Assembly (NCBI GenBank): GCA_020054095.1
Contig: JAGVMA010000031.1
Coordinates: 62,001-126,000 of the forward strand
From: Bacteroidia bacterium
Lineage (GTDB): Bacteria > Bacteroidota > Bacteroidia > JADZBD01
Length of the DNA: 64,000 bases
Direction of reading: 5' to 3'
Shown here: one piece after another, positions 33,312-49,496 of the stretch
Layout: each line of letters starts with the position of its first letter
How positions within the stretch are numbered: position 1 is the first letter of the stretch
The notes under the pieces: generated by a model
The model's input: only the letters and a program-made list of their open reading frames with translations
Databases searched by the model: none
Told to the model about the DNA's origin: nothing
Position numbers and translations under genes: made by a program

Positions 33312-35201
33312 ATGTGCGGAATTACAGGCATATTTAACTTAAATGGCAAGCCGGCCAATGCCGATTTAGTTCGGAAAATGACTGATGCTTTGGCGCATCG
33401 AGGACCGGATGGAAACGGTGTTTTTGTTCACAATCACATAGGTTTAGGGCATAGGCGACTCTCTATTTTAGATATAAGTGATAATGGAGCACAGCCAATG
33501 CACAGTACTGATAATGAATGGGTTATATCTTTTAATGGTTGTGTCTATAATTTTATTGAACTAAAAGAAGAATTACACAGGCGAGGTTATAAATTTAAGT
33601 CTACTTCAGATACTGAAGTTATAGCCGAAGGGTTAGCTGCTTACGGCCCAGATTTTTTCAAGCGGCTAAATGGCATGTTTGCCATTGCGGCATTAAATAA
33701 AACTACAAATGAGCTTTTTCTCTCGCGCGACAGGTATGGCGTAAAACCACTTTATTATTGGTATAACGATAAAGCACTTATTTTTGCTTCAGAGATAAAA
33801 GCATTTCTTCCATTTCCTGAATTTAAGGTGGAGTTAAACACATCGGCATTAAACGAGTATTTTACTTTCCAAAACTTGTTTCGCTATCACACCTTTTTTA
33901 AAGGAGTTACGATGCTGCCGCCAGCCAATACCATGAAAATTAAGCTGGGCGAACAGTTTAGACATGGCTCATGGTGGGATTATAATTTTACGCAAGTGGA
34001 TAACACCATTAGTTTTGAAGACACAAAAAACGAAACCAAACGCTTGCTTGAGCAAGCTGTAAACCGCCAAATGATAGCCGATGTGCCTGTGGGCAGTTAC
34101 CTTTCCGGTGGTATGGATTCGGGTTCTATTACTGCATTAGCGAGTAAAAAAATACCGCGCCTTGCCACTTTTACTGCAGGTTTTGATATGAGCGAAGTAA
34201 CAGGTGTAGAAGCAAATTATGACGAGCGAAGAGATGCCGAGCTAATGGCAAATTATTATAAAACCGAACATTACGAGCAAGTGATAAATGCCGGAGATTT
34301 GCGTTGGTCTTTACCGCGTGTGGTTTGGCATTTAGAAGATTTAAAAGTAGGTATGAGTTACCCCAATTATTACATCAGCCGCTTGGCATCAAAATTTGTA
34401 AAAGTTTGCTTGCAAGGCACCGGAGGCGATGAATTGTATGGCGGTTATCCATGGCGCTATTATCGCGTGTTTCAGTCGCTCGACCAAAAAGGATTTTTTG
34501 AAAACTATTATGGTTTTTGGCAACGATTAGTTGCCGATACAGATAAACGAAACTTGTTCACGCCATCGGTTTATTCGCAAATAAATATAGATGAACCTCG
34601 TCAAGTTTTTGAACGAGTATTCACATTCAATAACCAATTAAAATACGATACGCCCGAACACCACATCGAAAACAGTTTGTATTTCGAGATAAAAACATTT
34701 TTGCCGGGACTATTGCTTGTGGGCGATAAATTATCAATGGCGAATGGTTTGGAAGAGCGATTCCCGTTTTTAGATAACGACTTGGTTGATTTTGCCCAGC
34801 GAGTGCCTGTTAAACACAAGCTTGCCAATTTAGAGCAAATGAAAAAAATTGATGAGAATGTATTTGGCGGCAAAAAAAACTCTTACCGGCAGTTTGACGA
34901 TGGTAAAAATGTATTACGAAAAGCAATGACCGAAATCCTACCCGAATCCATAATCAACAGAAAAAAGCAAGGATTTTCAGCGCCTGATGAAAGTTGGTAC
35001 AGAGGCGAAAATGCCGGATACGTAAAAGAATTATTGCTGAGCAAAGAGCCCGCTTATGCCCAATACATTAACCCTGATTATGTTCGAAAGATTGTGGACG
35101 AACATATCAATCAACGAGTAAATCATCGTTTGGTGATTTGGTCGCTCATGAATTTTGAATGGTGGTGTAAATTATTCTTACGAAACGAACGAATAGTATG
35201 A
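33312..35201 (+). CDS. AsnB-family glutamine amidotransferase 1 (altered glutamine pocket)
   Basis: This 629-residue protein has the N-terminal Ntn glutaminase domain with the nucleophile Cys2 (MCGITG), HRGPDG and RDRYGVKPLYY, and the synthetase domain with the ATP-pyrophosphatase loop SGGMDS (265-270). The glutaminase NGE motif reads NGC (75-77); the Glu contacts glutamine in E. coli AsnB. A second loop reads QGTGGDELYGGY instead of SGxGADE/SDE. So it may amidate something other than aspartate or use another amide source; an uronic-acid amidotransferase (WbpS-like) is plausible given the neighbours. It starts the glycan cluster and overlaps the next gene by 4 bases. Confidence 0.88.
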   Translation: MCGITGIFNLNGKPANADLVRKMTDALAHRGPDGNGVFVHNHIGLGHRRLSILDISDNGAQPMHSTDNEWVISFNGCVYNFIELKEELHRRGYKFKSTSDTEVIAEGLAAYGPDFFKRLNGMFAIAALNKTTNELFLSRDRYGVKPLYYWYNDKALIFASEIKAFLPFPEFKVELNTSALNEYFTFQNLFRYHTFFKGVTMLPPANTMKIKLGEQFRHGSWWDYNFTQVDNTISFEDTKNETKRLLEQAVNRQMIADVPVGSYLSGGMDSGSITALASKKIPRLATFTAGFDMSEVTGVEANYDERRDAELMANYYKTEHYEQVINAGDLRWSLPRVVWHLEDLKVGMSYPNYYISRLASKFVKVCLQGTGGDELYGGYPWRYYRVFQSLDQKGFFENYYGFWQRLVADTDKRNLFTPSVYSQINIDEPRQVFERVFTFNNQLKYDTPEHHIENSLYFEIKTFLPGLLLVGDKLSMANGLEERFPFLDNDLVDFAQRVPVKHKLANLEQMKKIDENVFGGKKNSYRQFDDGKNVLRKAMTEILPESIINRKKQGFSAPDESWYRGENAGYVKELLLSKEPAYAQYINPDYVRKIVDEHINQRVNHRLVIWSLMNFEWWCKLFLRNERIV

Positions 35202-36568
35202 AAAGAAAGCCGAAAATATTAATGGTTTACAAATGTCTCGGCTATCCGTTACGCAAAACAGTAGATGAACATTTGTATTCGTTTTTGCGCTATGCCGATG
35301 CAGAGTGTTATTATTTAAAATTAGATATAGGCAAAGACACATTTTATAGCACCGAACCTATTCCTAACTATTTACTCGAAATAGATTTTGACATTATCCT
35401 TTTTCATTATGGATTTATATCAAGCCGCTGGGCCGGACAAGAATGTTATAACAGGGCTTTGCAGCAAGTTTTGCCGTTAAAAAAATCAAAAGCAATTAAA
35501 GCCGTTATGCCTCAGGACGAATACATGGGCTCAAAAAATATATGCCACTTTGTAAACGAAATGAACATTGATATAGTTTTTTCTGTTTCGCCCGAAACTG
35601 AGTGGGAGCAATTGTATGGAGGCATAGCCAATAAAAATGTGAAATTATTTAAAGTGCTTACCGGCTACTTGGATGATGGAGGAATAGCGACTGTAAATAA
35701 TTTCCTGAAAACAGAAAATAAAACAATTGACATTGGATACCGAGCCCGAAACTTGCCCCAGTGGCTCGGCAAGCACGGCTTTTTAAAAACCATTATTGCC
35801 GATGAATTTGAAAAGGTTTTACCAGACTACAAGTTAAACACTGATATTTCTACACGCCCTACCGATACTTTTATGGGTAATGAATGGTATAGGTTTATGG
35901 TGAAGTGCAAATACATGATTGGTGTAGAAGGTGGTGCTACCGTGCACGATCCCGATGGCAGTATTGCTATAAAAGGAAAAGAATATTTACGACAAAATCC
36001 AAATTGTTCGTTTGAAGAAATTGAAGCAGCGTGTTTTCCTAATCTCGATGGTAAGCTGCAGCTCATTGCCATTTCGCCTCGCCATTTGGAAGCATGCGCC
36101 ACACGCACTTGCCAAGTTTTAATTGAAGGAACATATAACGGAATATTAAAAGCCAATGTGCATTACATTCCGTTAAAAGAAGATTTTAGCAATATACACC
36201 AAGTACTTGCCGATATTAAAAACGACAGTAAACGAAAAGAAATTACCGATAATGCTTACCGAGATATTGTGGCATCCGGCAAATATTGCTACCAAAATTT
36301 TGTGAAAGAGGTAATAGACAAATGCCTTGTGCTTGCCACCGATGAATATTTTAACAGGCCAGTTACTTATGGTAAATACTACCGCAAAAATCGGTTTCAG
36401 GATTGGCTTTCGTGGAAAAAAGACTATTTCTGGCATAAAATTTACGACCGCTTACCAACAAAATGGGTGGTGCTTACGCCAACAATAAAACTCATAAAAG
36501 CACTTGGCTTAAAGAATGCTGCCAAGAAAATATATTTCGCCATAACAGGCAAGAAAAAATTTCCCTAA
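35198..36568 (+). CDS. Glycosyltransferase-like protein A of glycan cluster
   Basis: This 456-residue protein seems cytoplasmic; it has no signal peptide. Its N-terminal half is Rossmann-like (KILMVYKCLG start). A central segment (YRFMVKCKYMIGVEGG, DPDGS) and a C-terminal one (ISPRHLEACATRT, EGTYNGIL, KEDFSN) resemble GT-B glycosyltransferases of the CgeB/Glyco_trans_1_2 type. The next gene product has the same motifs in the same order, so they are paralogues. Donor and acceptor are unknown. It overlaps the asnB stop by 4 bases, indicating coupled expression. Confidence 0.65.
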   Translation: MKRKPKILMVYKCLGYPLRKTVDEHLYSFLRYADAECYYLKLDIGKDTFYSTEPIPNYLLEIDFDIILFHYGFISSRWAGQECYNRALQQVLPLKKSKAIKAVMPQDEYMGSKNICHFVNEMNIDIVFSVSPETEWEQLYGGIANKNVKLFKVLTGYLDDGGIATVNNFLKTENKTIDIGYRARNLPQWLGKHGFLKTIIADEFEKVLPDYKLNTDISTRPTDTFMGNEWYRFMVKCKYMIGVEGGATVHDPDGSIAIKGKEYLRQNPNCSFEEIEAACFPNLDGKLQLIAISPRHLEACATRTCQVLIEGTYNGILKANVHYIPLKEDFSNIHQVLADIKNDSKRKEITDNAYRDIVASGKYCYQNFVKEVIDKCLVLATDEYFNRPVTYGKYYRKNRFQDWLSWKKDYFWHKIYDRLPTKWVVLTPTIKLIKALGLKNAAKKIYFAITGKKKFP

Positions 36569-36578
36569 ACCGCAAAAG

Positions 36579-37847
36579 TTGAAGAAAGTAAAAGTTGTTT
36601 TTTTATACTGTTCAGATAAGTTCGATTCCTATTCAATTGACTGGAAAGATGCTTTTCAGAATGCGGAAAATATTGATGGCGTTTTTCTGGACATGTACGA
36701 TTACAAAAAAAATGTAGCTGCTCTAAAAAATGAAATTACAAAAGCAGATTTTATTGTTGCACTACACTCGTCTAATACCAATCCATCTAACATTCGGGTT
36801 TACATGCACTTTGTTTCTGTGCTTTTAACAAGAAAAATACCATTCATCACTTTTGTCGGCAATGAGTACAATATTCCTTTTAGAGGTTGCCGGCTATCCG
36901 AAAAAATAAATTTATTTAAACTGTTAAAGCCCGAAATATTGTGCACGCAATTGCCTCAGCAATCAGCAAAGCTGCTTTATGGTGTTGAGTTACCGAACAC
37001 GCGTATAGCTGAATATCCGCATGCTTTAAACGAAAAGACATTTGTGTGTACCACTAATTACAACTCACGTAAAATTGATGTAGGCATAAAAACCGGACGA
37101 TACGGAAATTATCTAGGTGATTCGGATAGAAATAGAATTATAGATTTCTTCAAAGAAAATTCATATCTGCTAAATTTATCTACTTCCATAGATGCTATAA
37201 AAGTTGACCGCGCAGGATGGGTAAATTTTTTAAACACATGCAAAGCCACAATAGGCAACGAATCGGGAACCAACTATACCGAGCCAAATGACAAAACCGT
37301 TATTGCCATTATGGATTATGTGGTGAATAAATTAAAAATAAAAAAACAACCTTTTTGGTTCAATTGGTTTGAACACGCTTTGTATAACTACAAGCCCATG
37401 CTCAGCTACAAGCTGCTGATGAATATTTACGATTTATTTAACACCAAATTATATTTCATGCGCTTTGCACAATATAATTTATACGCTAAAGTAGCCGATT
37501 ATGATTTCGAGGAAATATTTAAAACATTTTTCAAAAACTATGCTAACCCTATTTCCACGCGTTGTATATCTTCTCGCCATTTTGATGCAATAGGTACTAA
37601 AACTGCTCAGTTGCTTTTTCGCGGAAACTACAACGGAATACTTCGCGCCAACGAGCATTATCTCAGCGTAAACCACGATTTTTCAAATATTAATGATGTG
37701 TTACAAAAATTTAAAGATGAATCGTACATGAACAATATGTTAGATAAAACACATCAATATATTCATGATGCACATTTGTACAAACACAGGGTGGCGCACT
37801 TTTGCAAAAACATATTAAATTCGGATATAAAAGTTAACAGCTTATAA
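36579..37847 (+). CDS. Glycosyltransferase-like protein B of glycan cluster (TTG start)
   Basis: This 422-residue protein is a paralogue of the preceding one: FLNTCKATIGNESG and EPNDKT match the central segment, and SSRHFDAIGTKT, RGNYNGIL and NHDFSN match the C-terminal segment. The frame opens just after the previous stop; the only suitable start is TTG at 36579, directly before the first beta strand (VKVVFLYCS). It is probably a GT-B-type transferase in the cytoplasm with unknown substrates. It is followed by a GT4 gene after 2 bases. Confidence 0.65.
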   Translation: MKKVKVVFLYCSDKFDSYSIDWKDAFQNAENIDGVFLDMYDYKKNVAALKNEITKADFIVALHSSNTNPSNIRVYMHFVSVLLTRKIPFITFVGNEYNIPFRGCRLSEKINLFKLLKPEILCTQLPQQSAKLLYGVELPNTRIAEYPHALNEKTFVCTTNYNSRKIDVGIKTGRYGNYLGDSDRNRIIDFFKENSYLLNLSTSIDAIKVDRAGWVNFLNTCKATIGNESGTNYTEPNDKTVIAIMDYVVNKLKIKKQPFWFNWFEHALYNYKPMLSYKLLMNIYDLFNTKLYFMRFAQYNLYAKVADYDFEEIFKTFFKNYANPISTRCISSRHFDAIGTKTAQLLFRGNYNGILRANEHYLSVNHDFSNINDVLQKFKDESYMNNMLDKTHQYIHDAHLYKHRVAHFCKNILNSDIKVNSL

Positions 37848-37849
37848 CA

Positions 37850-39061
37850 ATGAAATCACTTTTCCTTTTTACCCAATCATTCCCTTACGGAAAAGGAGAA
37901 ACATTTATTGCGGAAGAACTGCCTTACCTTGCAACTAAATTTAAAACCATCTATATTTTTCCCGAAAACTGCTCAGGCGAAATACGCCCGTTGCCGGCAA
38001 ATGCAAACGTGGTAAACGGTTTTTCATTTTTATCAAGAGCCAATTACTCCTTTGTATTTAAAATTAAGTCGGCAATAAAATACTTAACCAGAACAATAAA
38101 ATCTAAAGAATACGGTTATCCACCTTTTAGAAACGCGCTAAGTTATTGGACTCAACGCATGCATAAAGCAGTTCAGTTAAAAAAATTTATGCTAAATAGT
38201 AAATTGAATCCTGCAGATGTGGTAGCTTACACCTATTGGTTAACCGGCTGGGCAGAATGGGTAGCATTGCTGCGAGATAAAAAAGTGGTTTCTAAATTCT
38301 ACAGCAGAGCTCATGGTTTTGATGTGTATGAAACGCAAACAGGTATTAAGTTTTTTGCTTGGCGCGATTATGTTTTATCAAATTGCGATGGCGTTTTTGC
38401 TGTTTCCGAAAATGGCGCAGCTCATTTATCAGCTCGCTATCCGGCACATCTCTCAAAAATTAAAACGGCTTGTTTAGGAGTGAGTGATAATTGCACTGAT
38501 GAAAACCACTCTTCAAACACAGAGCAATTTTTACTTCTCTCTTGCTCATCCACCATCGCATTAAAGCGAGTGGAAAAAATTGTTGATGTAGTCAGCGAAC
38601 TTAAATTTGATTTAAAGTGGGTGCATTTTGGTGATGGACCATTACAGAGTTTGTTGAATGTAAAAGTAAAATCTTTACCTGCAAATATTTCAGTTGAACT
38701 TATGGGCTGGAAAAGCAGCAAAGAAGTAATTCAGTTTTACCACCAAAACAAAGTTGATTTGTTTATAAACCTTAGCACATCTGAAGGTATTCCGGTTTCT
38801 ATTATGGAAGCAATGTCATTCGGCACTCCAGTTATTGCTACAAAAACAGGTGGCGTACCTGAATTAGTAAAACCCGATTTCGGTTTTTTGTTTGATGTAG
38901 ATTTTAAAACCAATGAAATTTCAGAAGCCATTCAGCATTTTTATCTTATGCCCGATAGCGCAAAGCAACAGTACCGGAAACTTGCCAGACAACATTATCT
39001 TGCTAACTTTAGCGCTGCAAAAAACTACACTCATTTTGCCGATATTATATGTGCGGAATAG
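37850..39061 (+). CDS. GT4-family glycosyltransferase
   Basis: The 403-residue protein is a GT-B glycosyltransferase of family GT4. The C-terminal nucleotide-sugar domain has LMGWKSSKEV, then NLSTSEGIPVSIMEAMSFGTPV with the conserved E-x7-E motif, and GGVPELV. The N-terminal acceptor domain begins LFLFTQSFPYGKGETF. It would act on a sugar acceptor at the cytoplasmic membrane face. Its last 13 bases overlap the start of the second asnB gene (39049), which points to translational coupling. Confidence 0.88.
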   Translation: MKSLFLFTQSFPYGKGETFIAEELPYLATKFKTIYIFPENCSGEIRPLPANANVVNGFSFLSRANYSFVFKIKSAIKYLTRTIKSKEYGYPPFRNALSYWTQRMHKAVQLKKFMLNSKLNPADVVAYTYWLTGWAEWVALLRDKKVVSKFYSRAHGFDVYETQTGIKFFAWRDYVLSNCDGVFAVSENGAAHLSARYPAHLSKIKTACLGVSDNCTDENHSSNTEQFLLLSCSSTIALKRVEKIVDVVSELKFDLKWVHFGDGPLQSLLNVKVKSLPANISVELMGWKSSKEVIQFYHQNKVDLFINLSTSEGIPVSIMEAMSFGTPVIATKTGGVPELVKPDFGFLFDVDFKTNEISEAIQHFYLMPDSAKQQYRKLARQHYLANFSAAKNYTHFADIICAE

Positions 39062-40983
39062 CAGGTATTTATAACTTAAATAACAAAGAAGTAAACGCAA
39101 TTAGCAATCAGCTAAATACGATGAACACTATTCAAATTCATCGTGGCCCCGATGGCCAACAAACTTGGCACCACGAAAAAAAGCACATCGGCTTTGGGCA
39201 CGTGCGGCTAAGTATTATTGATTTGTCAACATCGGCTAATCAGCCTATGACTGATGAAGCGGGCAACACAATTTGTTTTAACGGTGAAATATATAATTAC
39301 ATTGAGTTACGTGATGAGCTAAAAGGTTTTTACAGTTTTAAAACATCATCCGACACTGAAGTGATTTTAGCGGCCTATTTAAAGTGGGGGAAAAATTGTG
39401 TGAATCACTTGCGAGGCATGTTCGCATTTGCATTGTGGGATAACAAAACCAGTGAACTTTTTTGCGCTCGTGATAGGTTTGGCATAAAGCCATTTTATTA
39501 CACCACGGTTGGCGATGTGTTTTATTTTGCATCTGAAGCTAAAACACTGATGCCGTTTTTATCGGAGATAAAAACCAATATTAATGCACTAAAAGAATAT
39601 CTTTTTTTTCAACTTTGTATTGGCAACAGCACTTTGTTCGATGGCGTTAAAGAATTACCTCCGGCACATCACATCGCTATTAAAAATGGCGATTTGAAAA
39701 TTGAGCGCTACTGGGAAGTTTATTACAACTTAGATTTTAATCACACTTCCTCATACTTCAATGAAAAACTTAGCGAACTGCTCATTGATTCAATAAAAGT
39801 GCATTGCCGTGCCGATGTTCCCGTTGGCGCTTATGTGAGTGGTGGTTTAGATTCAGGCATTGTGTCATCTGTGGCAGTTGATTATAAAAGTGCCGATGAA
39901 TTTATGGCATTCACCGGTAAGTTTTCAGAAGGTGAATTATACGATGAAAGTTTTTACGCTCGAAAGCTTGCCGAAAAGCGCGGCATGAAATTACACGAGC
40001 AAAATATAACACACACAGATTTTAGTAACTCAATTGATAAAGTAATCTATCACCTCGATTTTCCTGTTGCCGGTCCGGGCTCTTTTCCTCAGTATCATGT
40101 TTCAAAACTGGCAGCAAAGCACCGCAAAGTTGTATTGGGCGGGCAGGGAGGCGATGAAATTTTTGGCGGCTACACACGTTACCTCATTGCTTATTTCGAG
40201 CAATGCATTAAAGGCGCAATTGATGGCACATTAAACACCGGCAATTTTGTCGTTACTTACGAGTCAATCATTCCTAATTTGGTTTCGCTTAAAAATTACA
40301 AACCGCTTATGCGCGATTTTTTCAAACAAGGATTGTTTGATCAAATTGACAAACGATATTTCCGATTAATAAACCGCGCGCCTGATTTAAAAAGCGAAGT
40401 AAAATGGGACGAACTTGGCGGCTATCAACCCTTCGATACATTTGCCGAAATATTTAATGGAAAAAATGTGGGCAAAGAATCCTATTTCGATAAAATGACG
40501 CATTTCGATTTTAAAACTTTATTGCCGGGGCTTTTACAGGTGGAAGATAGAATGAGCATGGCGCATGGATTAGAATCGCGCGTTCCGTTTTTAGACCATC
40601 CCGTTGTGGAATTTGCAGCTACTATGCCTGCTGATATAAAATTTAAAGACGGAACATTAAAAATGATTTTGCTTAACACGATGAAAGATTATTTACCAAT
40701 TGAAATTGTGGAAAGAAAAAACAAAATGGGTTTTCCGGTTCCGTTAAACGATTGGATAGGTAAAGAGTTGAAAGACTTTATAGGCGATATATTTAATTCA
40801 TCGGCAGCCAAAACACGCCCATACTTTAACCACTCCGAAATAGTAAAAGGGTTAAACTCATCAGAAAATAAGTTCGGCAGAAAAGTGTGGGGATTATTAT
40901 CTTTAGAACTTTGGCAAAAACAATTTCACGACCAGCATCATAAATTTAAAAAACAATTAACCCAACAAACCATAACACAATGA
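39049..40983 (+). CDS. AsnB-family glutamine amidotransferase 2
   Basis: This 644-residue paralogue keeps Cys2 (MCGIAG), HRGPDG, an intact FNGEIYN glutamine motif, RDRFGIKPFYY and the SGGLDS ATP-pyrophosphatase loop (264-269). The second loop is GGQGGDEIFGGY rather than the SGxGADE of true asparagine synthetases. It lies between a GT4 gene (13-base overlap) and an SDR gene (4-base overlap), so it is embedded in the glycan operon. I infer an amidotransferase acting on a sugar carboxylate, with asparagine synthesis as an alternative. Confidence 0.9.
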   Translation: MCGIAGIYNLNNKEVNAISNQLNTMNTIQIHRGPDGQQTWHHEKKHIGFGHVRLSIIDLSTSANQPMTDEAGNTICFNGEIYNYIELRDELKGFYSFKTSSDTEVILAAYLKWGKNCVNHLRGMFAFALWDNKTSELFCARDRFGIKPFYYTTVGDVFYFASEAKTLMPFLSEIKTNINALKEYLFFQLCIGNSTLFDGVKELPPAHHIAIKNGDLKIERYWEVYYNLDFNHTSSYFNEKLSELLIDSIKVHCRADVPVGAYVSGGLDSGIVSSVAVDYKSADEFMAFTGKFSEGELYDESFYARKLAEKRGMKLHEQNITHTDFSNSIDKVIYHLDFPVAGPGSFPQYHVSKLAAKHRKVVLGGQGGDEIFGGYTRYLIAYFEQCIKGAIDGTLNTGNFVVTYESIIPNLVSLKNYKPLMRDFFKQGLFDQIDKRYFRLINRAPDLKSEVKWDELGGYQPFDTFAEIFNGKNVGKESYFDKMTHFDFKTLLPGLLQVEDRMSMAHGLESRVPFLDHPVVEFAATMPADIKFKDGTLKMILLNTMKDYLPIEIVERKNKMGFPVPLNDWIGKELKDFIGDIFNSSAAKTRPYFNHSEIVKGLNSSENKFGRKVWGLLSLELWQKQFHDQHHKFKKQLTQQTITQ

Positions 40984-41915
40984 AAGTATTAGTTTCAGGA
41001 GGATGCGGCCAAGTTGGCTCACACGTTGCAGAACTACTATTGCAACGTGGCGACCAAGTGCTCGCAATTGATAATTTAACAACCGGCAGACGCGAACACT
41101 TAGCAAATCACCCAAACTTAAATGTGGTGATTGATACGATTGCAGACAAAACGCTTATAGACAAACTTGTGAGCGAATTTAAACCTGATGTTATTGTACA
41201 CACAGCAGCATCTTATAAAGACCCTAACGATTGGTACAACGATACACTAACCAACTGCGTAGGCGGAAGCAATTTAATTCATGCAGCCAAAACGTATGGC
41301 GTAAAACGATTTATCTATTTTCAAACTGCGCTTTGTTATGGCGTAAAACCATTGCAGCAACCCATTCGCCTCGATCATCCTAAATTTCCTGCAAATAGCA
41401 GCTATGCAATTACAAAAACGGCTAATGAAGATTTTTTAGAAATTTCGGGATTAGATTTTGTAACATTCCGTTTAGCGAATGTAGTGGGCCCAAGAAACGT
41501 GAGCGGCCCGTTACCTATATTTTTCCAACGATTAAAAGATGGCAAAAAATGTTTTGTTACAAATGCCCGCAGAGATTTTGTTTTTGTTATGGACTTAGCA
41601 CGCAACGTAGTTAAAGCTTGCGATGGAGTAGGGAAGGGCGCATACCATTTTTCATCGGGTACCGATGTGGCGATAAAAGAATTATACGATGCAGTGGTAG
41701 AAGCAATGGGCATATCACCCTATCCGGAAGCAGAAATGAAATTAATTGGCGAAGATGATGCGCCATCTATTTTATTAGACCCAAGTCGTACATTTCAAGA
41801 TTTTGGGAAAATAGAATTTACTCCATTAAAACAAACTGTAAAAGCAGCCATTGCCTATTTTCAAGAGCATGGCACATTAGGCGAGTACACACATTTAAAA
41901 ATCGAAAAAAAGTAA
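40980..41915 (+). CDS. NAD-dependent sugar epimerase/dehydratase 1 (extended SDR)
   Basis: The 311-residue extended SDR has the NAD motif SGGCGQVG, DNLTTGRREHL, a catalytic YAITK (Tyr-x3-Lys), GPRNVSGPLPIF and a C-terminal sugar-nucleotide domain. The Thr/Ser partner segment reads FQTALCYG. It is related to GalE/RmlB-type nucleotide-sugar enzymes, most like the epimerases of O-antigen loci; the exact reaction cannot be read from the sequence. It shares layout with the next gene product (FQTALCYG in both), pointing to a duplication. Confidence 0.85.
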   Translation: MKVLVSGGCGQVGSHVAELLLQRGDQVLAIDNLTTGRREHLANHPNLNVVIDTIADKTLIDKLVSEFKPDVIVHTAASYKDPNDWYNDTLTNCVGGSNLIHAAKTYGVKRFIYFQTALCYGVKPLQQPIRLDHPKFPANSSYAITKTANEDFLEISGLDFVTFRLANVVGPRNVSGPLPIFFQRLKDGKKCFVTNARRDFVFVMDLARNVVKACDGVGKGAYHFSSGTDVAIKELYDAVVEAMGISPYPEAEMKLIGEDDAPSILLDPSRTFQDFGKIEFTPLKQTVKAAIAYFQEHGTLGEYTHLKIEKK

Positions 41916-41923
41916 ACTACAAA

Positions 41924-42859
41924 ATGGCGAAACGGATTTTTATTACAGGTGGAGCTGGCTGTTTGGGCACAAGTATCATTGATAAATATTTGCCTTTAGG
42001 TCATCACATTTTTGTACTCGATAATTTTGCAACAGGTAAAAAACAAAATTTACCCGAACACGATAGTTTAAAAATTACAGAAGGTTCTGTTGCTGATGCA
42101 GAATTAGTTACGCGTCTTATAAAAGAATTTGCCCCTGATTTGATTATAAACAGTGCTGCAGCATACAAAGATCCTCAGAACTGGCAAGAGGATGCAGAAA
42201 CCAATGTGGTGGGTGCAATAAATGTTGCAAAAGCGTGCTTGGAAAACGGAGTAAACAAACTCATTAATTTTCAAACCGCACTCTGCTATGGCCGTCCGGA
42301 AAAAACACCTATCCCTATAACAGCTGCCACCAAACCATTTACAAGTTACGGAATATCAAAAACGGCAGGCGAACAGTTTCTTCTAAATTCCGGATTAAAT
42401 GTGATTTCACTTCGCCTTGCAAATATCTGTGGCCCACGTTTGGCGATAGGACCAATTCCTACTTTCTACACACGTCTTCAGCAAAATAAAAATTGCTTTT
42501 GTAGCGATAGCATCCGCGATTTTTTAGATATGGATGATTTCTTGGACATTCTTGACATTGCAATAAATAAAGAAATTCCCACAGGTATATACAATGTATC
42601 AACCGGTGCGGGAAGCTCTATTAAAGATGTATTTGACCAAGTAGTTGCTCATTTAGGAATTAATGCTCCTGAAGTGCCTATCGTTCCGGTGGGTGCCGAT
42701 GATGTGAGAGAAGTAGTACTTGATCCATCACACACTGAAAAAGTATTTTCTTGGAAAGCAAAATTAAATTTTGAGCAAACAATAAAAAGACAATTGCAAT
42801 GGTATGATAAATACGGTGTAACCGATATTTTCAGTCACCTTGCTGCTCCTGCAAAATAA
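41924..42859 (+). CDS. NAD-dependent sugar epimerase/dehydratase 2 (extended SDR)
   Basis: This 311-residue extended SDR has TGGAGCLG, DNFATGKKQNL, FQTALCYG, catalytic YGISK and GPRLAIGPIPTF. It is clearly paralogous to the preceding protein (same length, many shared motifs), so one probably arose by tandem duplication. Two similar SDRs in a row fit successive epimerisation or dehydration steps on one nucleotide sugar, as inferred for Bordetella WbmF-H. It starts 8 bases after its neighbour. Confidence 0.85.
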   Translation: MAKRIFITGGAGCLGTSIIDKYLPLGHHIFVLDNFATGKKQNLPEHDSLKITEGSVADAELVTRLIKEFAPDLIINSAAAYKDPQNWQEDAETNVVGAINVAKACLENGVNKLINFQTALCYGRPEKTPIPITAATKPFTSYGISKTAGEQFLLNSGLNVISLRLANICGPRLAIGPIPTFYTRLQQNKNCFCSDSIRDFLDMDDFLDILDIAINKEIPTGIYNVSTGAGSSIKDVFDQVVAHLGINAPEVPIVPVGADDVREVVLDPSHTEKVFSWKAKLNFEQTIKRQLQWYDKYGVTDIFSHLAAPAK

Positions 42860-42884
42860 CAAACACAAAAAAATAGTTAACAAT

Positions 42885-43928
42885 ATGAATTTTGATAACA
42901 AAAAAGTAGTAGTAGTAGGCGGAGCCGGTTTTGTGGGTTCTAACTTGGTAAAGATGATTTTAAATTCAAGCGAAACTGTTCATGTAATAGCGATTGACAA
43001 TTTAATGTCGGCCGAAGCAGGTAATCTGCCCGATCATAAACGACTTACCTTTTATGCCGGCTCCATTACCGAAACAAGTATTTTACGTCAGCTTACCGAT
43101 GATATTGATTATGTTTTTCATTTAGCAACTTATCACGGCAACCAAAGCTCTATTCACGATCCATTAGAAGACCACGCTAATAATACTTACACCACGCTAC
43201 GATTGTTCGATTGGATCAAAGATTTTAAAAACCTAAAAAAAATAGTTTACTCATCAGCGGGCTGTTCGGTTGCCAAAAAAACTTTTGATGCAGCAGACGA
43301 AACCACAGAAGATGACCCGATAGAAATAAAGCAGGACAGCCCTTATTCCATTTCGAAAATTGTGGGTGAGTTTTATGCCGTATATTATTTTAATCAACAC
43401 AAATTGCCTACCGTGCGAGCCCGTTTCCAAAATGTATATGGACCGGGAGAAGTGCTGGGAGCAGGCCGCTGGCGCGGAACTTACGCTACCGTGTGGCGAA
43501 ACGTAACTCCTACTTTTGTTTACAAGGCTTTAAATAACTTACCCATTCCGCTTGAAAATAGTGGCGTGGCAACTCGCGATTTTATTTATGTGGATGATAT
43601 TTGTAAAGGACTAATTGCTTGTGCTCTTAAGGGCGTGGTTGGCGATGTTTACAACATAGCAAGTGGCAAAGAAACTACCATTGCACAGCTTGCCGAAACA
43701 ATTGTGGAGCTTACCGGAAGCAAATCAAAGATTGAATATTTACCTAAGCGAGCTTGGGATAATTCAGGAAAACGCTACGGTAGTATCAAAAAATCTAAGG
43801 AGGTTTTGGGTTTTGAAGCTAAAGTTGACCACCGCGATGGATTGAAAAAAACAATTGAATGGACTAAAGTCAACATCGATCGAATTAACAAGTGCATTGC
43901 CAAACACGATGTGTTTCAGAAAAAATAA
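42885..43928 (+). CDS. NAD-dependent sugar epimerase/dehydratase 3 (extended SDR)
   Basis: The 347-residue protein starts at ATG 42885 (MNFDNKKVVVVGGAGFVG); a longer frame opening inside the previous gene adds 15 unlikely residues. It has GGAGFVG, HLATYHGNQ, the catalytic YSISK, RFQNVYGPGE and RDFIYVDD, as in UDP-glucose epimerase/dehydratase-like SDRs. It is more distant from the two preceding SDRs than they are from each other. A terminator-like hairpin follows its stop. Confidence 0.85.
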   Translation: MNFDNKKVVVVGGAGFVGSNLVKMILNSSETVHVIAIDNLMSAEAGNLPDHKRLTFYAGSITETSILRQLTDDIDYVFHLATYHGNQSSIHDPLEDHANNTYTTLRLFDWIKDFKNLKKIVYSSAGCSVAKKTFDAADETTEDDPIEIKQDSPYSISKIVGEFYAVYYFNQHKLPTVRARFQNVYGPGEVLGAGRWRGTYATVWRNVTPTFVYKALNNLPIPLENSGVATRDFIYVDDICKGLIACALKGVVGDVYNIASGKETTIAQLAETIVELTGSKSKIEYLPKRAWDNSGKRYGSIKKSKEVLGFEAKVDHRDGLKKTIEWTKVNIDRINKCIAKHDVFQKK

Positions 43929-43948
43929 TTAATCGCGGTTTTATCACT

Positions 43949-43977
43949 AAAGCACTCTATATTTAGGGTGCTTTTTT
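43949..43977 (+). terminator. Terminator hairpin directly before the third asnB
   Basis: An 11-bp stem (AAAGCACTCTA with TAGGGTGCTTT, one G-U pair), a 4-base loop and a T-run end only 3 bases before the ATG at 43981. It may end the upstream operon or act as an attenuator or translation block for the next gene. Confidence 0.8.
43958..43965 (+). promoter_or_regulatory. -7-like element inside the terminator hairpin (TATATTTA)
   Basis: One mismatch from TAnnTTTG, 15 bases before the third asnB ATG. If used, the promoter would overlap the terminator of the upstream transcript. Confidence 0.3.
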
Positions 43978-43980
43978 ATT

Positions 43981-45756
43981 ATGTGTGGAATAGCAGGAAT
44001 ATTAAATTTTAACCAACAGCCCGTAACTCGTGATGAAATAAAACGAATGACGGATGTGATAAGTCATCGGGGGCCTGATGGCGAAGGACATTGGATTAAT
44101 AGTTCGAAAACCATTTCATTAGGTCATCGCAGACTTTCAATCATTGATCTTACTCATAACGGACAACAGCCAATGCATTATGCCGATGGTAGATACGCCA
44201 TCACATTTAATGGCGAAATTTATAATTACATTGAATTAAAAAATGACTTATTAAAAAACGGATACAGTTTTAAATCCGATTCGGATACAGAAGTATTAAT
44301 GGCGCTTTATCATCAGCATAAAGAAAACTGTTTACAATTACTGGATGGTATGTTTTCGTTTGCTATTTGGGATGAAAAAGAGAAAACGCTTTTTTGTGCC
44401 CGTGATAGATTTGGCGAAAAACCATTTTACTTTTTTAAGGACAAAAACCGCTTTGTTTTTGCATCAGAGATAAAGCAGTTTTGGCAAATTGGTATCGAAA
44501 AAAAAGTGAACGAATTTCTGCTATATCTACATCTTGGAAATAAAAACACGCTTACCAATTTTGCAAATTCAGCAGAAACATTTTTCAGAAATGTTTTCAA
44601 ATTGGACAAAGCCAATTATTTGATTGTAAAAACTGATGGTTCCTTTACCCAAAAAAAATATTGGGATATTGACCTAAAACTTAAATCGGACTTGAACTTT
44701 AATGAAGCTTGCGAAAAATTAAGAGAATTCTTAAGTGGTTCTGTTAAAAGAAGATTAAGGTCGGATGTTGCTGTCGGATCCAGCTTATCAGGAGGATTAG
44801 ATAGTTCTACAATTGTTTCAATTATCAACGAAATTTATAATGGCACAAGTCAAAAAACATTTTCTGCAAGATTTAAAAACTTTGAAAAAGACGAAGGCGA
44901 GTATATAAACGATATAGTGTCAAATACAAATGCACAAGCGCACTATACCTGGCCGGATGATGGCACACTGGTAACTGATATTACAAAATTAATTTACCAT
45001 CAGGATGAACCATTTGGCACAGCAAGTATTTATGCACAGTGGGCGGTAATGAAATTAGCGAAAGAACATAAAGTTACTGTTTTGCTTGACGGACAGGGCG
45101 CAGATGAAATGCTTGCGGGGTACAAGTATTATTATGCTAATTTTTTTCATGAATTAATTTGCTCAAACGTAAATGAATATAACAAGCAGAAAAAATCTTA
45201 CTCAGCGCTGTATGGCGACTTTCCGTTTTCCGGAAACAATTCAAGTTCTATAACTGAAAATCTTAAAGCTAAACTTAAAAATTTTGTTAGGCCATATTAT
45301 CGTTCACTCTTTAATGCTTCTAAGCAGGTGAGTAAGTCCACAAAGAGTGTTGAAGTATTTAATCCCGACTTCATTAGCCAATTTAATTTATCTGCACAAT
45401 CACAACCTCAGTTTCAAACATTAAATGAAATTTTATACTGGAGCACAGCTAAACATGGTTTAGAAGATTTGTTACGTTTTGCCGATAGAAACTCAATGGC
45501 ACACTCGCGCGAAGTGAGGTTGCCATTTTTAAATCATCATCTTGTAGAATTTATTTTCTCACTACCCGCTACTTACAAAATAAATGACGGCTGGACTAAA
45601 TATATTTTGAGACAATCGTTTGAAGGCAAATTGCCTTCGTCAATTGCATGGCGTAAAGACAAAATTGGATATGAGCCGCCACAAGGAAAATGGATGGAGA
45701 ATATAATTATAAGAGAGATGATAGATGATTCCGTTTCTGTTTTAAAAAAAAAATAA
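43981..45756 (+). CDS. AsnB-family glutamine amidotransferase 3
   Basis: The 591-residue protein has Cys2 (MCGIAG), HRGPDG, FNGEIYN, RDRFGEKPFYF and the ATP loop SGGLDS (270-275); the second loop is DGQGADEMLAGY. It is the most isolated of the four copies: a terminator hairpin ends 3 bases before the ATG and another follows the stop, so it looks like a separate transcription cassette inside the cluster. It has more Lys and Asn than its paralogues in the middle region. Function as for the others: amide transfer from glutamine to a carboxylate, target unknown. Confidence 0.9.
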   Translation: MCGIAGILNFNQQPVTRDEIKRMTDVISHRGPDGEGHWINSSKTISLGHRRLSIIDLTHNGQQPMHYADGRYAITFNGEIYNYIELKNDLLKNGYSFKSDSDTEVLMALYHQHKENCLQLLDGMFSFAIWDEKEKTLFCARDRFGEKPFYFFKDKNRFVFASEIKQFWQIGIEKKVNEFLLYLHLGNKNTLTNFANSAETFFRNVFKLDKANYLIVKTDGSFTQKKYWDIDLKLKSDLNFNEACEKLREFLSGSVKRRLRSDVAVGSSLSGGLDSSTIVSIINEIYNGTSQKTFSARFKNFEKDEGEYINDIVSNTNAQAHYTWPDDGTLVTDITKLIYHQDEPFGTASIYAQWAVMKLAKEHKVTVLLDGQGADEMLAGYKYYYANFFHELICSNVNEYNKQKKSYSALYGDFPFSGNNSSSITENLKAKLKNFVRPYYRSLFNASKQVSKSTKSVEVFNPDFISQFNLSAQSQPQFQTLNEILYWSTAKHGLEDLLRFADRNSMAHSREVRLPFLNHHLVEFIFSLPATYKINDGWTKYILRQSFEGKLPSSIAWRKDKIGYEPPQGKWMENIIIREMIDDSVSVLKKK

Positions 45757-45769
45757 AATTATTAATACT

Positions 45770-45807
45770 AATGCTACTGTAAGCGAGAGCGATAAGTGGC
45801 ATTTTTT
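45770..45807 (+). terminator. Terminator after the third asnB
   Basis: AATGCTACT pairs with AGTGGCATT (9 pairs, one G-U) around a 16-base loop, followed by a run of T residues. Confidence 0.7.
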
Positions 45808-45834
45808 GGTTGCAGCACAATCGTTATATAAATA

Positions 45835-46944
45835 ATGAAAATTACCTTCTTACTCGAAAATTACAATTGGTTTTACTCTCGCTTTTTCGAGTCGGATGAG
45901 GAAATTCATACAAAGTTGTACAACGACCAAATAGCCGAGTTAATTGCTATGCGCTATTACCAATCAGATAGCTTGGGTAACGAACTTAATAAAATTGGTT
46001 ATTCTGCTCAGTATCTTATTCCCGAATGCATGCCGCTGCAAATTAATTGGGCGAAAGAGTACAATAAGAAACTGTATAAAAAATGGACTTACGGAAAAGT
46101 GTTGCGAAGCGTAAAAAGCAGATTGCATATCGGCAATCCTTTAAATAATTTTATGCAGCAAATTTTATTGGCACAATTGCGCGAATCAAAACCCGATATT
46201 GTTTTTTGCTACTCAGGAGTATGGCTCGATGATGAAACAGTAACAAAGATTAAAGAAATGGGATGCATACTTGTTTTGCAGTGGTCGTGTCCTATTATGG
46301 ATAAATGGAAAAATTTCTCATTCAATAAATTTGATTTTATACTTTCTTCCTCTCAAAATTTGGTTGGCCACTTTAAGAGCATAGGCTGTGAATCGTTTTT
46401 TTTTCAGCAAGCATTTGACGCTCGGGATAAAATAAAAACACAGCCAACACGAAACGTAATATTTGCAGGAAGTTTAACTAATGAACATCATCGCCTGCGA
46501 ATAGAATTAATTGAAAAAATTTGTTCTCGATTTTCTGTTGATGTCTTTACACAGGTGAAACCAACAATGCCTAATACAGCAAAATGCTGGAAGGGTGGAA
46601 TTGCCGGGCAACAAATGCTTAACACTTATGGTAATTATAAAATTGCGTTGCATATTCCTGGTGATGAATTTGAAGATGATGCCGGTGCAAAAAGATTATT
46701 TGAAGTTACCGGTGTGGGCTCATTACTGTTAACATACAATCAAAAAAATATTTCTGATATTTTTAATCTGAGCCAAATAATTACTTTTACAGATGCCGAT
46801 GATTGTGTAGCAAAAATAAAGCACTTGATAACAAATGAAGATGAACGAGCTGCTATTGCAAAAAACGGAAACGATATTACTTTAACTAATCACACATTTG
46901 CAAGCAGAGCAGAGCAGTTTAACCAACTACTAAATTCAATTTAA
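45835..46944 (+). CDS. CgeB-like glycosyltransferase (Glyco_trans_1_2 type)
   Basis: This 369-residue protein resembles the CgeB family: a Rossmann-like N-terminal part with a long helical insertion, the FAGSLTNEHHRLRIEL segment that opens the C-terminal domain, and DDAGAKRLFEVTGVGSLLLT, the typical nucleotide-sugar-binding signature of Glyco_trans_1_2. It would act in the cytoplasm; donor and acceptor unknown. It has more usual motifs than the two paralogues at 35198 and 36579. Three bases separate it from the fourth asnB. Confidence 0.8.
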   Translation: MKITFLLENYNWFYSRFFESDEEIHTKLYNDQIAELIAMRYYQSDSLGNELNKIGYSAQYLIPECMPLQINWAKEYNKKLYKKWTYGKVLRSVKSRLHIGNPLNNFMQQILLAQLRESKPDIVFCYSGVWLDDETVTKIKEMGCILVLQWSCPIMDKWKNFSFNKFDFILSSSQNLVGHFKSIGCESFFFQQAFDARDKIKTQPTRNVIFAGSLTNEHHRLRIELIEKICSRFSVDVFTQVKPTMPNTAKCWKGGIAGQQMLNTYGNYKIALHIPGDEFEDDAGAKRLFEVTGVGSLLLTYNQKNISDIFNLSQIITFTDADDCVAKIKHLITNEDERAAIAKNGNDITLTNHTFASRAEQFNQLLNSI

Positions 46945-46947
46945 AAC

Positions 46948-48723
46948 ATGTGTGGTATTGCAGGCATAGCACATTGGGGTAAACGAAACAATTTGTCAGA
47001 TATAGAACAAATGAGTGCTGCTATTGCTCATCGTGGTCCTGATGGAAAAGGTATTTTGCATTTGCCCGAAATTTCTTTGGCGCATCGTAGATTATCCATT
47101 ATTGATTTGTCGAATAACGCATCTCAGCCAATGCAAAATAAATCGGGCAGGTTTGTTGCAATTTTTAATGGCGAAATCTATAACTATACCGAAATAAAAA
47201 ACGAACTCAAAAAAAAGGGCTATGCTTTTAAAAATAATTCGGATACTGAGGTTGTGCTCAATGCTTATGAAGAATGGGGCACTGAATGTTTAAAAAAATT
47301 TAATGGCATGTTCGCCATAACAATTTGGGACACACAAAAAAAACAATTGTTTATAGCACGCGACAGATTTGGTAAAAAGCCGCTGTATTATTATTTTAGT
47401 TCTGATAAACAAATTTCTTTCGCATCAGAATTAACTGCGCTAATTAAAGACAAAACCATAGAAAGAAAACCATCTATTGAGGCACTTAACTGTTATCTTG
47501 CCTTGGGTTATATTTTAGCTCCGCTTTCTTTTTACGAAAACGTATTTAAGCTTGAAGCAGCAACCTACCTCTTAATTTCTGATAACGGAAGCAAGATTGA
47601 GAAAAAACAATACTGGAATTACGCAGACTATTTTTCAATCAAAACAGCTGATACCGAAAAACAAGCAACTGAAAAAATTATTTATTTACTTGAGGATGCA
47701 GTTAAACTTAGAATGATTAGCGATGTTCCGGTGGGTGCGTTTCTTAGTGGCGGAGTAGATTCTTCTGCCGTGGTGTCTCTTATGAAAAAAAATCAAAAAG
47801 GCGATTTACACACATTTAGTATTGGCTTTGCCGAAAAAACTTATAATGAATTGGCTGCTGCTGATGCGATGGCTAAAGCTTTAAATACACATCATCATGG
47901 TGAAGTTATTAGTGGCAACCCTAATCAATTAATTGCAGATGCTATTGCAGCATTTGACGAACCATTTGCCGACAATTCATTAATTCCAATGCTTTATGTT
48001 TCGCAACTTGCTAAAAAGCATGTTACTGTTGCGCTTTCGGGCGATGGAGCTGATGAACTTTTTGCCGGCTACATTACATATAAAGCGGGTAAATATTATT
48101 ATCAATCACAATTAATTCCGCACTTCATTAGGAAAATAGTTTTACAATCACTTCAAAAAAACGAAACACATTCTAATCAAAAAATAAATTTTAAGTATAA
48201 GCTAAAACAATTTTTACACGGTTCGCTTCAAGATGCCGAAACTGCACATTATTCTTGGCGCCTGTTTTTTCACCCCGAAGAGCGTGTGAAAATTTTAGGC
48301 GAACATCACCGACAATTAATTTATGATACCGACCCGTGCTTAACATTCAAAAAGCATTTCGCAAGAGTTCCGCACTTACATTGGCTTGATAAAAATTTAT
48401 ATGTTGATGCGATGACTTGGCTAACCGATGATATTTTGGTAAAAGTTGACAGAACAAGTATGCGTTCTGGTCTTGAAGCTCGCGCTCCTTTCTTAGATTA
48501 TCGCTTAGCAGAATATGTAGCATCACTGCCTCCTAATTATAAATTGCGTGGTGGGCAAACAAAATATATTCTGAAAAAAGCATTGCAAAAAATCTTGCCA
48601 CACGAAACATTGTATAAGAAGAAAAGTGGATTTAATGCCCCTGTGGGCAAGTGGTTGGGAGTAAACTACGGAGATGAATTCAGAAGTTTTAATAAATTTG
48701 TGTTTGATTCAAAAAACAAATAA
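46948..48723 (+). CDS. asnB: AsnB-family glutamine amidotransferase 4 (most canonical)
   Basis: The 591-residue protein has all hallmarks of glutamine-hydrolysing asparagine synthetase: Cys2 (MCGIAG), HRGPDG, FNGEIYN, RDRFGKKPLYY, SGGVDS (267-272), and SGDGADELFAGY, the second nucleotide loop in its usual form. Of the four copies it is the best candidate for making asparagine, although such proteins are also common in capsule and O-antigen loci. Its stop overlaps the start of a methyltransferase gene (TAATG), so expression is coupled. Confidence 0.92.
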   Translation: MCGIAGIAHWGKRNNLSDIEQMSAAIAHRGPDGKGILHLPEISLAHRRLSIIDLSNNASQPMQNKSGRFVAIFNGEIYNYTEIKNELKKKGYAFKNNSDTEVVLNAYEEWGTECLKKFNGMFAITIWDTQKKQLFIARDRFGKKPLYYYFSSDKQISFASELTALIKDKTIERKPSIEALNCYLALGYILAPLSFYENVFKLEAATYLLISDNGSKIEKKQYWNYADYFSIKTADTEKQATEKIIYLLEDAVKLRMISDVPVGAFLSGGVDSSAVVSLMKKNQKGDLHTFSIGFAEKTYNELAAADAMAKALNTHHHGEVISGNPNQLIADAIAAFDEPFADNSLIPMLYVSQLAKKHVTVALSGDGADELFAGYITYKAGKYYYQSQLIPHFIRKIVLQSLQKNETHSNQKINFKYKLKQFLHGSLQDAETAHYSWRLFFHPEERVKILGEHHRQLIYDTDPCLTFKKHFARVPHLHWLDKNLYVDAMTWLTDDILVKVDRTSMRSGLEARAPFLDYRLAEYVASLPPNYKLRGGQTKYILKKALQKILPHETLYKKKSGFNAPVGKWLGVNYGDEFRSFNKFVFDSKNK

Positions 48724-49496
48724 TGGGACAGAAAAAACAAAGTGAATGGCATGAGCAGTGGAGTATGCTGCAAGATGATGAGTTGTTCCTTTTTAAAGAT
48801 TGGATTCACCCCGTTACGTTAGATGATTTTAAAAATAAAGAAGTATTAGAGTGCGGATGCGGTGGTGGCCAGCACACTTCTTATGTTGCTCCGCAAGCTA
48901 AACATCACACAGCTGTTGATTTAAACACTCCAGATTTAGCTCAGAAGCGAAACGCACAATTTTCAAACATCACATATATTGAAGCCGACATTGCGAAAAT
49001 GGATTTACAAAAACAATTTGATTTTGTTTTTTCAGTAGGCGTGGTGCATCACACCGATTCGCCCGATGCTACCTTCGAGAATATGAAGAAACATACTAAA
49101 CAAGGCGGAAAAACAATTGTTTGGGTTTATTCTAAAGAGGGAAATTGGATGGTTGAAAAATTAGTTGAACCTATTCGCAAAAGTATTTTGGTGAAAATGT
49201 CGCGCAAAGGATTGCTTAATCTATCGAGAATAGTAACAGCATTAATGTACCTTCCCATTTATACTATTTATCTTTTGCCATTAAAGTTTTTGCCGTTTTA
49301 TGAATATTTTCAGAATTTCAGAAAACTTTCTTTTTACCGAAATGTGCTTAATGTTTTTGACAAGTTAAATGCGCCACAAGTAGATTTTATTAGTCGCGCC
49401 CGTATTGAAAAGTGGTTTAATACAAATGATTATACTGATATTCACATAAGCGCTTACAAGGCAGTTAGTTGGCGTGGCAGTGCTGTAAAAAAATAA
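48723..49496 (+). CDS. Class I SAM-dependent methyltransferase of glycan cluster
   Basis: The 257 residues include the SAM motif I EVLECGCGGGQHT, AVDLNTPD, motif post-I IEADIAKMD and SVGVVHHTDSPD, as in Methyltransf_11/25 proteins. A hydrophobic, Leu/Tyr-rich region (about 165-200) may touch the membrane. It follows asnB 4 with a one-base overlap and ends 3 bases before ligA. It probably methylates a sugar or the end of a glycan chain; this is inferred from position only. Confidence 0.82.
   Translation: MGQKKQSEWHEQWSMLQDDELFLFKDWIHPVTLDDFKNKEVLECGCGGGQHTSYVAPQAKHHTAVDLNTPDLAQKRNAQFSNITYIEADIAKMDLQKQFDFVFSVGVVHHTDSPDATFENMKKHTKQGGKTIVWVYSKEGNWMVEKLVEPIRKSILVKMSRKGLLNLSRIVTALMYLPIYTIYLLPLKFLPFYEYFQNFRKLSFYRNVLNVFDKLNAPQVDFISRARIEKWFNTNDYTDIHISAYKAVSWRGSAVKK

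Follow-up and report, generated by a model that had tools for sequence, protein, structure and literature searches.

Four AsnB-family amidotransferases beside a Bordetella-type wbmHGF module in a predicted glycan cluster of a Bacteroidia genome

The stretch of DNA analysed here (the window: 64,000 nucleotides of contig JAGVMA010000031.1) comes from a Bacteroidia bacterium with a genome of 3.17 Mb in 87 contigs, whose relatives, as found by sequence, are labelled Bacteroidota. Between a ParB/transaldolase region and ligA it carries a cluster of twelve genes, all on the + strand (33312-49496), in which four AsnB-family amidotransferases of four distinct subfamilies are interleaved with glycosyltransferase-like genes and with orthologues of wbmH, wbmG and wbmF of Bordetella. 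Read from sequence, the cluster probably directs the synthesis of a surface glycan that bears a number of different uronamides, with one AsnB-type enzyme for each acceptor, and that is built round the Bordetella-type pathway to 2,3-diacetamido-2,3-dideoxy-L-galacturonic acid and its amide, L-GalNAc3NAcA(N).

All four amidotransferase genes are full-length open reading frames (ORFs), as originally predicted: A1 (subfamily 1, 33312-35201), A5 (39049-40983, tied to wbmHGF by clade and neighbourhood), A9 (subfamily 3, by Pfam and tree, 43981-45756) and A11 (subfamily 4, 46948-48723). Each matches GATase_7 or GATase_6 plus Asn_synthase in Pfam with E about 1e-41 or lower (GATase_7 plus Asn_synthase for A1), and Cys2 and an SGG(M/L/L/V)DS loop were seen in every one. 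The second loops also read as had been predicted – QGTGGDE in A1, GGQGGDE in A5, DGQGADE in A9 and SGDGADE in A11 – and it is plausible that these differences reflect different acceptors.

Identity of A5, A9 and A11 to A1 is 32-37%, and in a tree of 38 sequences (WbqG included) each of the four keeps its own company: A1 groups with proteins of Sedimenticola and Ramlibacter (46-48% identity), A5 falls in a single wbm-linked clade of 18, A9 groups with Bacteroidota proteins and A11 with a protein of the Bacteroidota locus L051, with support of 100/100 in each case. Being of one family and in one cluster, the four might be taken for recent and redundant tandem duplicates. However, the low identity, the four clades with cross-genome orthologues and an approximately unbiased (AU) test on a smaller tree, which rejected one shared clade for the four (p-AU 1.8e-7), make tandem duplication extremely improbable. 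Judged by these comparisons they are four old, separately conserved subfamilies rather than tandem copies.

Profile scores separate the four from AsnB of general metabolism: against the AsnB equivalog model PRK09431 they reach 287-317 bits (cut-off 499), and a housekeeping identity was ruled out on the NCBIfam cut-offs. Neither the profile scores nor the tree place all four with housekeeping AsnB, the outcome that the original prediction had named as contrary to it. Both TTIRASTP, the aspartate-site motif of the E. coli enzyme, and the Glu of SGEGSDE are missing from the four aligned sequences; other asparagine synthetases may also differ at these motifs, hence their loss is not decisive. Among solved structures of the AsnB family, that of a hydroxyamidotransferase (7ylz) comes closest to A5, with E. 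coli AsnB behind it. It could nevertheless be that general metabolism relies on at least one of the four as its asparagine synthetase and that the glycan has a single uronamide: the genome encodes an asparaginyl-tRNA synthetase (AsnRS), no AsnA was found in it, and TIGR01536, a broad model for asparagine synthases, takes in all seven of its PF00733 proteins. We consider this quite unlikely. The four, together with the three others where scanned, lie far below the PRK09431 cut-off and none keeps an aligned TTIRASTP; a copy outside the cluster (C36), which retains the Glu of the SGEG loop, is a better candidate; from genome to genome the four genes go with glycan clusters; and GatB is present in the genome.

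The concentration of these genes is itself far above chance. Four of the seven PF00733 genes lie within 16 kb of the 3.17 Mb, and every other genome in a set of 198 from the phylum, scanned at one threshold, has five or fewer in total. The remaining three AsnB genes of the host (C36/L038, C72/L039 and C19/L037) also lie within or beside glycan clusters.

Mutant evidence for P. gingivalis WbpS and for WbqG of E. coli O121 supports the formation of uronamides by AsnB relatives (PMC7468200), and enzymes of this type (in P. aeruginosa O6, in E. coli O121 and as PGN_1234 of P. gingivalis) are encoded in glycan clusters. A11 is the nearest to them: TIGR03108, the model for the WbpS/PEP-CTERM amidotransferase type, is its best match (557 bits, compared with 440 for A5, 422 for A1 and 375 for A9, all below the cut-off of 816.9), and in the 38-sequence tree A11 and WbqG share a broad clade (96/95), a weak grouping and a placement that the smaller tree does not resolve. 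A search of E. coli DNA with A11 did not lead to WbqG; the O121 locus was located by wzx primer sequences. The WbpS/WbqG systems have one such enzyme per cluster, whereas here there are four. A5, perhaps with A11, might alone make uronamides, the amide bonds made by A1 and A9 on the glycan being of another sort, for example between an amino acid or amine and a uronic acid. Lasso-peptide and N-acetylglutaminylglutamine amide (NAGGN) enzymes of the AsnB family act on other substrates, and A9 and A1 give sub-threshold matches to the lasso-peptide cyclase model (365 bits, cut-off 525) and to the NAGGN amidotransferase model (391 bits, cut-off 570), respectively. In addition, the clusters of relatives encode the N-acetyl sugar amidotransferase WbuX and WbqC, and a uronic acid in amide linkage to an amino acid is known from a marine bacterium (PMC3210612). 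Yet all four enzymes retain the glutaminase half with Cys2, which argues for ammonia as the nucleophile, and such a division of labor appears unlikely.

Grounds for a particular sugar come from the three extended short-chain dehydrogenases/reductases (SDRs). Their presence had been predicted and was borne out by Pfam, as was that of a methyltransferase dependent on S-adenosylmethionine (SAM), but their identity as WbmH (40980-41915), WbmG (41924-42859) and WbmF (42885-43928) had gone unnoticed. The ORF of the third is listed from TTG 42840; its start is probably ATG 42885. Best matches in the PDB are full length: 2q1w for the gene at 40980 (543 bits, E 2e-162, 75.0% identity), 2pzk for that at 41924 (431 bits, E 2e-128, 63.1%) and 2pzj for the ORF at 42840 (495 bits, E 8e-148, 63.8%). 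The titles of these entries say only 'putative nucleotide sugar epimerase/dehydratase'; we take 2pzj, 2pzk and 2q1w to be the WbmF, WbmG and WbmH entries of King et al. 2007. The chains have 377, 330 and 333 residues and the published WbmF, WbmG and WbmH 357, 310 and 313 (PMC2279256), a constant excess of 20 that fits the assignment. Bordetella WbmF is without the Ser/Thr of the catalytic triad (Ala131) and has Cys133, His90 and Asn213, while WbmG and WbmH retain T-Y-K (PMC2279256); alignment shows equivalents of all four residues in the WbmF orthologue, a predicted 3,5-epimerase, and intact T-Y-K triads in the other two. WbmH of the host is 89-94% identical to that of Bacteroidota relatives while neighboring genes are about 33-82% identical, a contrast that may be a sign of uneven constraint or of mosaic transfer.

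The wbm locus of Bordetella bronchiseptica and B. parapertussis (wbmI-H-G-F) is among the closest known systems. WbmH, WbmG and WbmF are encoded in the same neighboring order in both (63-75% identity). In the host an AsnB-type gene, A5, stands directly before wbmH and overlaps it by 4 bp, a conserved pairing, and by its place in the locus it may correspond to wbmI. In Bordetella the product is an O antigen of L-GalNAc3NAcA, which at one stage is rich in uronamides (PMC2279256, PMC3849452, PMC3507681), the uronamide-rich chains being deamidated by WbmE (PMC3507681). The proposed route is a 3,5-epimerization of UDP-D-ManNAc3NAcA (the UDP-activated 2,3-diacetamido-2,3-dideoxy-D-mannuronic acid) to UDP-L-GalNAc3NAcA, which rests on mutants and structures rather than enzyme assays (PMC2279256). 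The host cluster differs in its four AsnB subfamilies, in having neither an ABC exporter nor a WbmE-like deamidase among the twelve genes, in its scattered wbp genes and in its Bacteroidota host. Within the host's own phylum, the protein O-glycosylation cluster of Tannerella forsythia combines asnB with a ManNAc uronamide (PMC6120980), but with one asnB, a WecB/WecC route and no wbmHGF described.

Transferred to the host, the pathway would run as follows. Wbp enzymes encoded elsewhere in the genome would supply UDP-D-ManNAc3NAcA, which WbmG or WbmH would oxidize at C4; WbmF would epimerize the product at C3 and C5, and reduction by the other SDR would give UDP-L-GalNAc3NAcA. With glutamine and ATP, A5 would convert the carboxylate of L-GalNAc3NAcA to the uronamide, and A1, A9 and A11 would perform the same chemistry on three other uronic-acid acceptors, either as UDP-sugars or after transfer. 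The four interleaved glycosyltransferases would link the residues, one enzyme per residue, the methyltransferase would methylate the product, and export would fall to machinery encoded elsewhere, since none is in the cluster.

Genes for this precursor stand with the module at two loci: wbpA, B, D, E and I (L018) and wbpB, D, E and I (L024) lie immediately 5' of wbmHGF, identified by sequence and by similarity to host proteins with NCBIfam matches, and this arrangement ties the wbmHGF module to UDP-ManNAc3NAcA. Host candidates are WbpA (55% identity), WbpB (32-34%), WbpD (52%), WbpE (48%) and WbpI (47-51%). A single operon on C8 encodes those for WbpA, WbpB and WbpD; the WbpE candidate is on C40 and that for WbpI on C66. 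These candidates bear on the destination of the glycan. It might be the anionic lipopolysaccharide (A-LPS) or linker glycan that anchors cargo of the type IX secretion system (T9SS), with amides on a linking sugar of the Wbp/Vim type, a role compatible with a multi-uronamide glycan. The genome encodes at least 150 T9SS C-terminal tails, which makes an A-LPS role conceivable, and P. gingivalis WbpS makes the uronamide of a linking sugar (PMC7468200). However, in P. gingivalis a single asnB, beside wbpE/wzx, is enough, the WbmHGF module also occurs outside the Bacteroidota, and the wbp genes of the host lie elsewhere; we hold this destination to be rather unlikely, if worth keeping in view.

A WbmH match was found in one of 296 sampled genomes of the phylum, the host genome itself (WbmF-like matches: 5 of 401 in a sample of Ramlibacter's family), and the wider comparison therefore rests on a scan of genome contigs. 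This yielded 22 WbmH loci, from Bacteroidota, Verrucomicrobiota, Pseudomonadota, Nitrospirota, Neomarinimicrobiota, a Thermotogae-labelled metagenome-assembled genome (MAG) and others. Nearly all encode an A5 homologue adjoining wbmH or a few kb from it, followed by wbmG and wbmF; A5 homologues in this position (54-72% identity) come from at least five phyla, and in most of the loci G2 homologues adjoin A5/wbmHGF. Variants of the module were also seen. An extra WbmH-like SDR (44-46% identity to WbmH) lies between wbmH and wbmG at L051:4067-5005 and L011:10942, its place being taken by a methyltransferase in L009 and L028. The A5 homologue of the Thermotogae-labelled MAG (L019:2426-4339) starts MSG, lacks the catalytic Cys2 and has altered glutaminase motifs: its glutaminase half is possibly dead, or the enzyme ammonia-dependent.

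Conservation of the whole set provides the main argument that the four AsnBs do different jobs: distinct subfamilies are conserved in parallel. Orthologues of A1, A5, A9 and A11 occur in the same relative order in four Bacteroidota loci (L051-L054), with G2, wbmHGF, G10 and M12, although all four are seen together in no single one of these relatives, partly because contigs end. A1 orthologues (70-77% identity) open the clusters; an A11 orthologue (60%) is followed directly 3' by an M12 orthologue (80%) in L051; a G3 orthologue (58%) is in L052, and G10 homologues are 33-35% identical. A Sedimenticola cluster (L024 plus L056) has the same AsnB subfamilies, wbmHGF and glycosyltransferases in largely the same order, and adds wbp genes and a Wzm/Wzt-like ABC exporter, neither of which is in the host cluster; some clusters of this group add WbqC, WbuX, or extra SDR or methyltransferase genes. 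The neighborhood search proposed with the original prediction, for clusters with three or more asnB-like genes, found them in five genomes: in three Bacteroidota (G296, G297, G299) a span of about 20 kb takes in four asnB genes, and two genomes (G298 and G300, the latter Ramlibacter) have three each. In three of these genomes one of the four asnB genes encodes a second A9-like protein, and a WbuX amidotransferase is added as a fifth amidating enzyme. WbuX (TIGR03573, 267 bits, cut-off 203) is at L051:11974-13158 and also near the ends of L053 and L054, which suggests that these relatives may make an acetamidino sugar as well.

Of the four glycosyltransferase-like genes that had been predicted, G4 (37850-39061; GT4, PF00534, E 7e-23) and G10 (45835-46944; PF13524) were recognized by Pfam, which gave no match for G2 (35198-36568) or G3 (36579-37847). 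The AlphaFold model of G2 (mean confidence, pLDDT, 81) matches GT4/GT-B enzymes in Foldseek (E about 1e-8), and G3 is homologous to the C-terminal part of G2 (BLASTP E 1e-18), a domain common to both; with this structural match and shared domain the count of four holds. The cluster ends with the methyltransferase M12 (48723-49496; PF08241, E 2e-17). Genes mostly overlap or are separated by less than 12 bases, as predicted, with two larger gaps of 52 bp (before 43981) and 78 bp (before 45835). One may tentatively go further and picture an assembly line, in which each of four non-redundant AsnBs has a different uronic acid to amidate and its own glycosyltransferase to work with, one residue after another, to give a largely charge-neutralized poly-uronamide surface glycan.

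The two larger gaps have features of their own. The reading frame of A9 closes shortly after ten consecutive A residues (45744-45753), and the next frame encodes a C-terminus like that of its relatives: the 78 bp before 45835 resemble this frameshifted end, and the stop of that frame overlaps the start of G10. On this evidence the A9 C-terminus is probably frameshifted at the A run, through assembly error, phase variation or slippage. The 52-bp gap holds a terminator-like hairpin (43949-43974; 11-bp stem, T-rich tail) between wbmF and A9, a consensus match alone of a kind whose total is not above that in shuffled sequence; transcription of the cluster may be divided there into two units.

Several points weigh against a cluster that makes a multi-uronamide glycan as proposed. 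None of the twelve genes has a Pfam match to a flippase, polymerase or initiating transferase, encodes a multi-helix membrane protein or resembles the ABC exporter WbmL/M/N; lacking all four functions, the cluster cannot act alone. A9 may be impaired by its frameshift, the WbpB candidate is the weakest of the wbp assignments at merely 32-34% identity to the query, and one AsnB-type gene might make asparagine instead, since AsnRS is present and both AsnA and a canonical AsnB are absent. What is observed is the identity of the genes, their active-site residues, their conserved order and the division of the AsnBs into four clades; what each enzyme acts on, AsnB acceptors among them, when amidation takes place and which glycan finally results are inferred. 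The specific prediction is confined to the L-GalNAc3NAcA(N) branch (A5).

The idea first proposed, of a surface glycan in which several uronic acids are amidated, fits four conserved non-housekeeping subfamilies next to SDRs of a diacetamido-uronic acid pathway. To have called the system undescribed was too strong: the wbm pathway of Bordetella forms its core, other genomes have similar clusters with three or four asnB genes, and one Bordetella wbm locus is annotated with plural 'asparagine synthase genes', their number not being stated in the text (PMC12243275). Apart from that annotation, the literature searched holds no direct description of multi-asnB uronamide clusters or of the L051-L054 and Sedimenticola clusters, and a glycan type with so many dedicated amidating enzymes is perhaps, as far as that literature shows, undescribed, a suggestion made with reserve. 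The system is real and specific and it recurs, but it elaborates on a kind already known from wbm and WbpS.

Far from being peculiar to Bordetella, the L-GalNAc3NAcA pathway known from that genus is a module found across many phyla. The acceptor specificity of the AsnB family is poorly known, most members being annotated merely as asparagine synthase. Because the four subfamilies adjoin a defined nucleotide-sugar pathway and recur together, they form a natural set from which the residues that choose the acceptor may be read.

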